From NCBI GenBank assembly GCA_903930675.1, contig CAIYZJ010000040.1:1-42102 (forward strand): a DNA stretch of 42,102 nucleotides. Direction: 5' to 3'. The first letter of the stretch is position 1; every line of letters begins with the position of its first letter. A model generated the notes under the pieces. It saw nothing but the letters and a program-made list of their open reading frames with translations. It was not told the DNA's origin and made no database searches. This document shows, piece by piece, positions 7,885-11,940 of this stretch. The position numbers were made by a program, and so were the translations under genes. Origin of the DNA: an uncultured Hyphomicrobiales bacterium (lineage in GTDB: Bacteria > Pseudomonadota > Alphaproteobacteria > Rhizobiales > Beijerinckiaceae).

Positions 7885-11193
<3,309 letters not shown>

Positions 11194-11340
11194 GCCCGAT
11201 TTTCATTTGAAATGACGGGTTGGAATGGCCTGGCAATTGGTTGACAAGGCGGGTGCTGACGCGCAAATCTCTTTGCATCGGCTCCGGAGCATGTCAAAAA
11301 CCGGATCAAAGGCCAACACGATCATCATGCTGTGCTTACC

Positions 11341-11388
11341 GTCCTAAGGCTTACACACCATAGGACAGGTATGGTTTTTGTATTTTTT
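11341..11388 (+). promoter_or_regulatory. greA leader with competing antiterminator and terminator hairpins
   Basis: In the 215-bp carB-greA gap, ACCATA (11357-11362) pairs with TATGGT (11370-11375) around a 7-base loop. It is followed by a U-rich tract (TTTTG TATTTTTT, to 11388), which looks like an intrinsic terminator 20 bases before the greA start. Upstream, GTCCTA (11341-11346) is the exact complement of TAGGAC (11361-11366), which overlaps the left arm and loop of the terminator, so the two folds exclude each other. It could alternatively be the carB terminator. A TTGACA hexamer at 11241-11246 is a possible -35 element for greA. E. coli greA is known to have a leader terminator that yields the GraL RNAs; the similarity here is by arrangement only. 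Confidence 0.55.
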
Positions 11389-11408
11389 AGGGTGACGGAA
11401 ACAAGACG

Positions 11409-11882
11409 ATGGAAAAAGTCCCGATGACAGCCGAGGGCCACAAGGCTCTGGTTGAAGAGCTCAAGCACCGTCAGCAGGTGGAGCGCCAGCGCATCATTCA
11501 GGCGATCTCGGAAGCGCGCGCCCATGGCGACCTTTCGGAAAACGCCGAATATCATGCCGCCAAAGAGCAGCAATCACTCAATGAAGGCCGTATCGCCGAG
11601 CTGGAAGACAAGCTTTCGCGCGCCGAAATCATCGATATTTCCAAATTGTCGGGCACCGTGATCAAGTTCGGCGCGACCGTGCAACTGATCGACGAGGATA
11701 CCGAGCAAGCCCGCACCTATAAAATCGTCGGCGATATGGAAGCGGATGTGAAACAGGGCAAGGTTTCGATTTCCTCGCCGATTTCCCGCGCGCTGATCGG
11801 CAAGACAATCGGGGACACTGTCGAGGTCAACACCCCCGGCGGCGGCAAGAGCTATGAAATCACCGGCGTGAAATTCATTTAA
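11409..11882 (+). CDS. greA: Transcription elongation factor GreA
   Basis: GreA binds the secondary channel of RNA polymerase and stimulates cleavage of backtracked transcripts, rescuing arrested complexes. The 157-residue length is standard. The N-terminal coiled coil starts [20 protein letters not shown] and carries the tip acidic residues in [15 protein letters not shown] (D and E near residues 41-44). The C-terminal FKBP-like domain ends with [20 protein letters not shown] and [14 protein letters not shown]. The ATG at 11409 is preceded by a weak GGTGACGGAAAC ribosome-binding region. A strong terminator follows the stop. The leader holds a possible attenuator. It lies downstream of carB, an order common in alphaproteobacteria. 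Confidence 0.97.
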
Positions 11883-11909: not shown

Positions 11910-11940
11910 AAGCCCGCTGCCGAGCGGGCTTTTGCATTTT
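11910..11940 (+). terminator. Intrinsic terminator of greA
   Basis: AAGCCCGCT (11910-11918) and AGCGGGCTT (11923-11931) form a perfect 9-bp stem around GCCG, followed by TTGCATTTT. It ends a few bases before the convergent Lrp gene and may also serve it. Confidence 0.88.

Follow-up and report, generated by a model that had tools for sequence, protein, structure and literature searches.

The window, i.e., the whole stretch of 42,102 nucleotides that was analyzed, carries on its forward strand an ORF corresponding to carB, encoding the large subunit of carbamoyl-phosphate synthase (positions 7885–11193; NCBIfam NF003671, 1744.7 bits), which is located upstream of, and in the same direction as, the ORF of the transcription elongation factor greA (11409–11882; NCBIfam GreA model NF001261, 248.4 bits with a cut-off of 167). 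The two genes are separated by a gap of 215 nts, whose 3′ end is occupied, on the same strand, by a terminator-like hairpin at 11334–11375 (−15.3 kcal/mol) and by the T-tract TTTTTGTATTTTTT at 11375–11388; the T-tract lies 20 nts before the greA ATG and is kept with small changes in the five genomes of the genus. An earlier note on this DNA had drawn attention to four 6-mers of this region, all of which are present at the positions where it had placed them: GTCCTA (11341–11346) is complementary to TAGGAC (11361–11366), while ACCATA (11357–11362) is complementary to TATGGT (11370–11375), which is directly followed by the T-tract. These two pairings cannot coexist. On the other side of greA, 3′ of the gene, an ordinary terminator-like hairpin (AAGCCCGCTGCCGAGCGGGCTT) is found at 11910–11931, ahead of the converging gene of an Lrp-like regulator.

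Terminator-like hairpins were ranked using the score d, which combines the stem energy with a scoring of the T-tract. The top-scoring hairpin ending at the T-tract is that at 11335–11374 (d = 13.6), in which GTCCTA constitutes the 5′ core and TAGGAC the 3′ core of the stem; in truncated leaders whose 5′ end is at 11275 or 11320, this stem forms with P of at least 0.86. When chance expectation was estimated by dinucleotide shuffles of the region 11196–11375, the score of the large hairpin was matched by 103 out of 1000 shuffles in which the T-tract was retained. Furthermore, folding of the leader gave z-scores of −1.30 and −1.31, and a simple terminator scan of the window lists neither this hairpin nor the small one formed by ACCATA and TATGGT. 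As a single sequence, the leader is therefore only mildly unusual, and the support for the large hairpin has to come from its relatives.

Within the genus, five genomes were compared, namely this one (G000) and four sisters (G001–G004). Hairpins at the same position are found in G001, G002, and G003, with d ranging from 16.6 to 18.5, and G004 has a 35-nt hairpin of unrelated sequence, which ends at −34 and scores d = 41.9. The inner stem of the large hairpin is mostly conserved, two inner pairs being broken in one genome each; of the three outermost pairs, two are lost in all four sisters, and the third is reduced to a G-U in one of them. Changes on both sides of a pair occur at 11337–11371 and 11346–11361, both in G003. 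In RNAs ending at the T-tract, the large stem reaches P of at least 0.93 in G000 as well as in G001–G003, the sisters covered by the fold comparison, given that the hairpin of G004 is not alignable by column. Across the five genomes, no upstream segment pairs consistently with the 5′ arm of the large hairpin (P from 0.05 to 0.49, at differing places), and a conserved stem excluding the terminator before the T-tract is synthesized, as expected for a classical terminator/antiterminator attenuator, was not found.

The comparison with wider relatives comprises 231 greA leaders, derived from 50 of 59 matching genomes, from the best 80 of 587 named records, and, for the remaining 101, from a family search in which 157 of 159 genomes matched. 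A hairpin with d > 0 ending between −60 and −10 of the start codon is present in 127 of the 230 scorable leaders, L013 having been dropped because of its short upstream DNA. In the matched relatives, a set which left out L013 and one aatA locus with too little upstream DNA, such a hairpin precedes greA in 32 of 49 cases, as compared to 5/30 for carB, 2/30 for trxB, and 2/29 for aatA. The corresponding Fisher test of greA against the control-gene leaders taken together (9/89) gives p = 2e-11, a value that is too strong because related genomes are not independent. These counts bear out the idea, put forward in the earlier note, of a leader terminator, insofar as a terminator-like hairpin is found in the equivalent place before greA in many relatives. 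A clear strand bias was also observed: near the start codon, hairpins with d > 0 occur in the greA-sense strand of 152/229 leaders vs. 34/229 for the opposite strand, and at d > 15 the figures are 97/229 and 5/229, respectively.

When the stretch considered in the same matched set was widened to −110 to −10, hairpins were counted before greA in 35 cases, before carB in 11 (of 30), before trxB in 5, and before aatA in 2; with 11 of its 30 leaders in this group, carB is not a clean negative control. These 11 carB leaders (among L236–L260) have a terminator-like hairpin of their own at about −23 to −87, often with a GCGGCC end followed by TTTTTTT, which may possibly represent a carB attenuator. 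As to trxB, its match in G003 (L265) contains one in-frame TAA and could be either a broken gene or a match overrunning the gene end. In 30 of the 80 named genomes (the best 80 of 587) no hairpin with d > 0 is found at −110 to −10 before greA. The hairpin-less leaders include L051, whose GreA is the closest among the named genomes listed, the five Bradyrhizobium-titled records without exception, and, out of four rechecked records called Rhodobacteraceae, two; the closest named GreA among the matches listed is 80% identical and belongs to a MAG filed as Alsobacter soli, a match that would place the window in the Rhizobiales/Hyphomicrobiales.

Given that carB lies directly upstream of greA in 187 of the 231 leaders, the hairpin could be the terminator of carB. 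Being leaky, it would let greA be expressed by read-through, with no regulation aimed at greA itself. This explanation is consistent with the finding that hairpins with d > 0 at −110 to −10 are similarly common with carB adjacent (125/187) and without it (28/44), and with a regression of hairpin position on gap length, which does not separate carB from greA (126/175 leaders, gaps of 40–290 nts). It also agrees with the promoter search in the window's own group (103 leaders), where promoter hits do not peak anywhere between carB and the hairpin, the bins containing 3 to 9 hits each. On the other hand, similar hairpins precede greA where the upstream neighbor is divergent, and in the Rhizobiaceae-type leaders the hairpin is preceded, with fixed spacing, by a −10-like box. 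Overall, we consider a leaky carB terminator possible, but on the doubtful side.

The Rhizobiaceae-type leaders are a set of 15, picked by eye, from Ensifer, Shinella, Rhizobium, Agrobacterium, Mesorhizobium, Hoeflea, Endobacterium, Brucella endophytica, and others. They share a similar hairpin, which begins with a CGGTTCCG-like arm and ends with a TTTTCTTTT-like tract. The upstream ORF, which runs in the opposite direction, proved to be a genuine gene in 6 of the 7 cases tested (radical SAM in three, GSDH in two, and MFS in one), while the seventh, that of L082, has no Pfam match. A −10-like box is located 25–29 nts upstream of the hairpin in 13 of the 15 leaders, and TATAAT-like hits accumulate in the bin from −30 to −21, with 17 hits vs. 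3 or fewer in every other bin. The divergent neighbor, together with the −10-like box at a fixed distance, indicates that the terminator of these leaders belongs to greA; it would release an RNA of approximately 50–60 nts. RNAalifold returned no structure when all 15 hairpins were analyzed, a result ascribed to misaligned 3′ arms; with the 11 cleanly aligned rows (i.e., without L061, L062, L063, and L065) it gave 13 stem pairs, 3 of which have changes on both sides.

In the window itself, a loose-rule script detected a weak promoter-like site at 11241–11268 of the forward strand, consisting of TTGACA, 16 nts, and GCAAAT (9/12 matches). This candidate greA promoter, whose TTGAC at 11241 is conserved in 4 of the 5 genomes of the genus, is not listed in a stricter promoter scan of the window, which lists no promoter in the leader. 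A greA promoter hidden in the 3′ end of carB was also looked for, and no convincing −10 box was seen there. The same 3′ end, at about 11068–11110, displays strong synonymous conservation over an 11-residue motif, which is present in 138 of the 187 carB-adjacent relatives; the Leu codon just before HK is TTG in 107 of 135 cases. To judge from this codon usage, the region may perhaps contain an overlapping element. A leader-peptide attenuator was considered as well and rejected: according to a by-eye reading of the alignment, the 18-codon ORF at 11291–11347, which ends inside the hairpin, is open in G000 and G002 and broken in G003 and G001. Finally, Rfam at the gathering score gave no matches in the window or in 20 greA loci.

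The hairpin could also be an element for the processing or the stability of a carB-greA transcript, and not a terminator. Such a role would also suit a stable hairpin located between genes of the same direction, but it predicts neither the run of T residues right after the stem nor the excess of hairpins in the greA-sense strand, and we regard it as improbable.

A still lower probability is assigned to the switch between two mutually exclusive folds, proposed in the earlier note, in which ACCATA/TATGGT would be the terminator and GTCCTA/TAGGAC the antiterminator. Both pairings exist. The small hairpin (11357–11375 of the forward strand) is part of the best fold of the fragment 11330–11395 (−16.8 kcal/mol), and, of the five fragments folded for this genome, two give it a P of 0.14 to 0.39, the higher value being that of 11330–11394. 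However, it is a weak alternative (−4.6 vs. −15.3 kcal/mol), and the large hairpin dominates until the T-tract has been transcribed: for partial transcripts that begin at 11275 or 11320 and have their 3′ end at 11366–11388, P is 0.99–1.0 for the large stem and 0.0 for the small one. When RNAs with the same starts extend past 11388, the small hairpin attains at most 0.14. Since its fold needs nucleotides 11385–11394, downstream of the T-tract, it gains weight only after the termination decision; moreover, its P is 0.00–0.01 in the sister genomes G001, G002, and G003. The supposed antiterminator stem, in turn, itself abuts the T-tract and constitutes the better-scoring terminator. Rather than an antiterminator, GTCCTA/TAGGAC forms the core of a single, larger hairpin of terminator type; no conserved antiterminator was found in the five genomes, and the roles given in the earlier note are swapped.

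As regards the covariation of the two stems, each has two pairs with changes on both sides in G003, the small hairpin being pairable in G001–G003 with energies of −3.6 to −4.3 kcal/mol. The conservation of the small hairpin would favor a switch, but weakly, because the four sequences concerned are related to each other and because the 3′ end, being rich in G, can pair with many partners. Among the shuffles, 24 of 5000 yielded a perfect hairpin of 6 bp adjoining the T-tract, and in 3 of 5000 it was accompanied by a competing upstream 6-mer; when the real hairpin was kept fixed and the upstream DNA alone was shuffled, a competing 6-mer appeared in 329 of 5000. The least probable explanation is a short-leader promoter overlapping the T-tract, with TATTTT (11381–11386) as the −10 box and greA independent of read-through: these letters are present and nearly conserved in the genus, but CCATAG (11358–11363), 17 nts upstream, does not look like a −35 box, nor does the scan report a promoter at this position.

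Most likely, with a probability that we put at roughly 0.55, the hairpin is a GraL-like terminator of the greA leader, which would limit greA expression by read-through. The hairpin is a computed feature; in relatives it recurs before greA, with a bias for the greA-sense strand, and is present also where greA has no co-directional neighbor. In the cell, we infer, RNA initiated at any upstream promoter would have to pass through 11334–11375 and the T-tract in order to reach greA. A fraction of the polymerases would stop at about 11376–11390, releasing a short leader RNA, and greA would be made by the remainder. The level of GreA would probably influence this step in turn, making read-through less frequent, as it does in E. 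coli, and the whole arrangement would consist of a single leader terminator with no antiterminator stem. The earlier note had suggested that, if GreA aids the polymerase past this site, greA expression could be self-limiting; the sign of this argument is backwards, because a GreA helping the polymerase past the site would lead to self-stimulation of greA, not to self-limitation.

More tentatively, greA leader terminators close to the promoter could represent a widespread feedback device that has been reinvented repeatedly, in which the GreA-stimulated cleavage of backtracked polymerase would set the termination rate. Such a device would be characterized by a short and fixed distance from the start, by hairpins that differ among Enterobacteria and several alphaproteobacterial lineages, by the lack of an antiterminator, and by little sequence conservation between lineages. 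This generalization is conceivable rather than probable. If the Rhizobiales share the layout with unrelated hairpins, the comparison would show that the start-to-terminator distance and the T-tract matter, and not the sequence. The Rhizobiaceae-type leaders, with their −10-like box at a fixed distance and an often divergent neighbor, would be a clean test case.

The GreA of E. coli acts through GraL to repress its own gene, for which its residue D41, involved in RNA cleavage, is required; approximately one third of the transcripts pass the GraL terminator (PMC6829880). The repression is observed in vivo and not in vitro, and an unknown extra factor has been invoked; according to passages of this paper, the mechanism of GreA self-limitation in E. 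coli is still open, which makes a comparison with the Rhizobiales layout of interest (PMC6829880). In E. coli, as in the window, the greA leader contains a terminator hairpin, and those passages mention no antiterminator; the start deduced for the Rhizobiaceae-type leaders would lie about 15 nts before the hairpin, vs. 19 nts in E. coli (PMC6829880). The comparison with GraL made in the earlier note holds to this extent, a terminator-like hairpin being found in the greA leader of the window, as in E. coli and in many relatives. The same d scorer recovers the GraL terminator of E. coli (d = 35.5) at 101 nts before the ATG. Unlike GraL, the hairpin of the window is located 34 nts before the ATG and has carB upstream, and no hairpin sequence shared by the two is apparent.

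The S. meliloti gene SMc01218 is presumably greA. In this organism, the sRNA candidate sm23 adjoins SMc01218 in a divergent intergenic region of 292 nts and is placed on the SMc01218 strand (Valverde et al., 2008; PMC2573895). The gap between greA and its divergent neighbor in the Ensifer leader L075 is of similar size, about 294 nts. With its predicted promoter and terminator, sm23 was put forward, in the passages of that paper, as a separate 148-nt sRNA gene, without microarray signal, and not as a greA attenuator (PMC2573895). No mention of SMc01218 or greA was found among the main-text passages listed for PMC2873474 and PMC3616915, and the greA-lpsB passages of PMC3788101 contain nothing on the greA leader.

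Attenuation of greA/rnk leaders has been predicted in other phyla, this family being the seventh among the attenuated gene families (Naville and Gautheret, 2010; PMC2965389). Each cluster modelled there has a clear antiterminator, whereas no conserved one was found in the genus of the window, and the passages available from that study include no alphaproteobacterial greA leader (PMC2965389). Among the literature matches listed, we found no description of alphaproteobacterial greA leaders with such a layout. GraL of E. coli and the predicted greA attenuators of other phyla are known already; what is new is the present example of an alphaproteobacterial leader.
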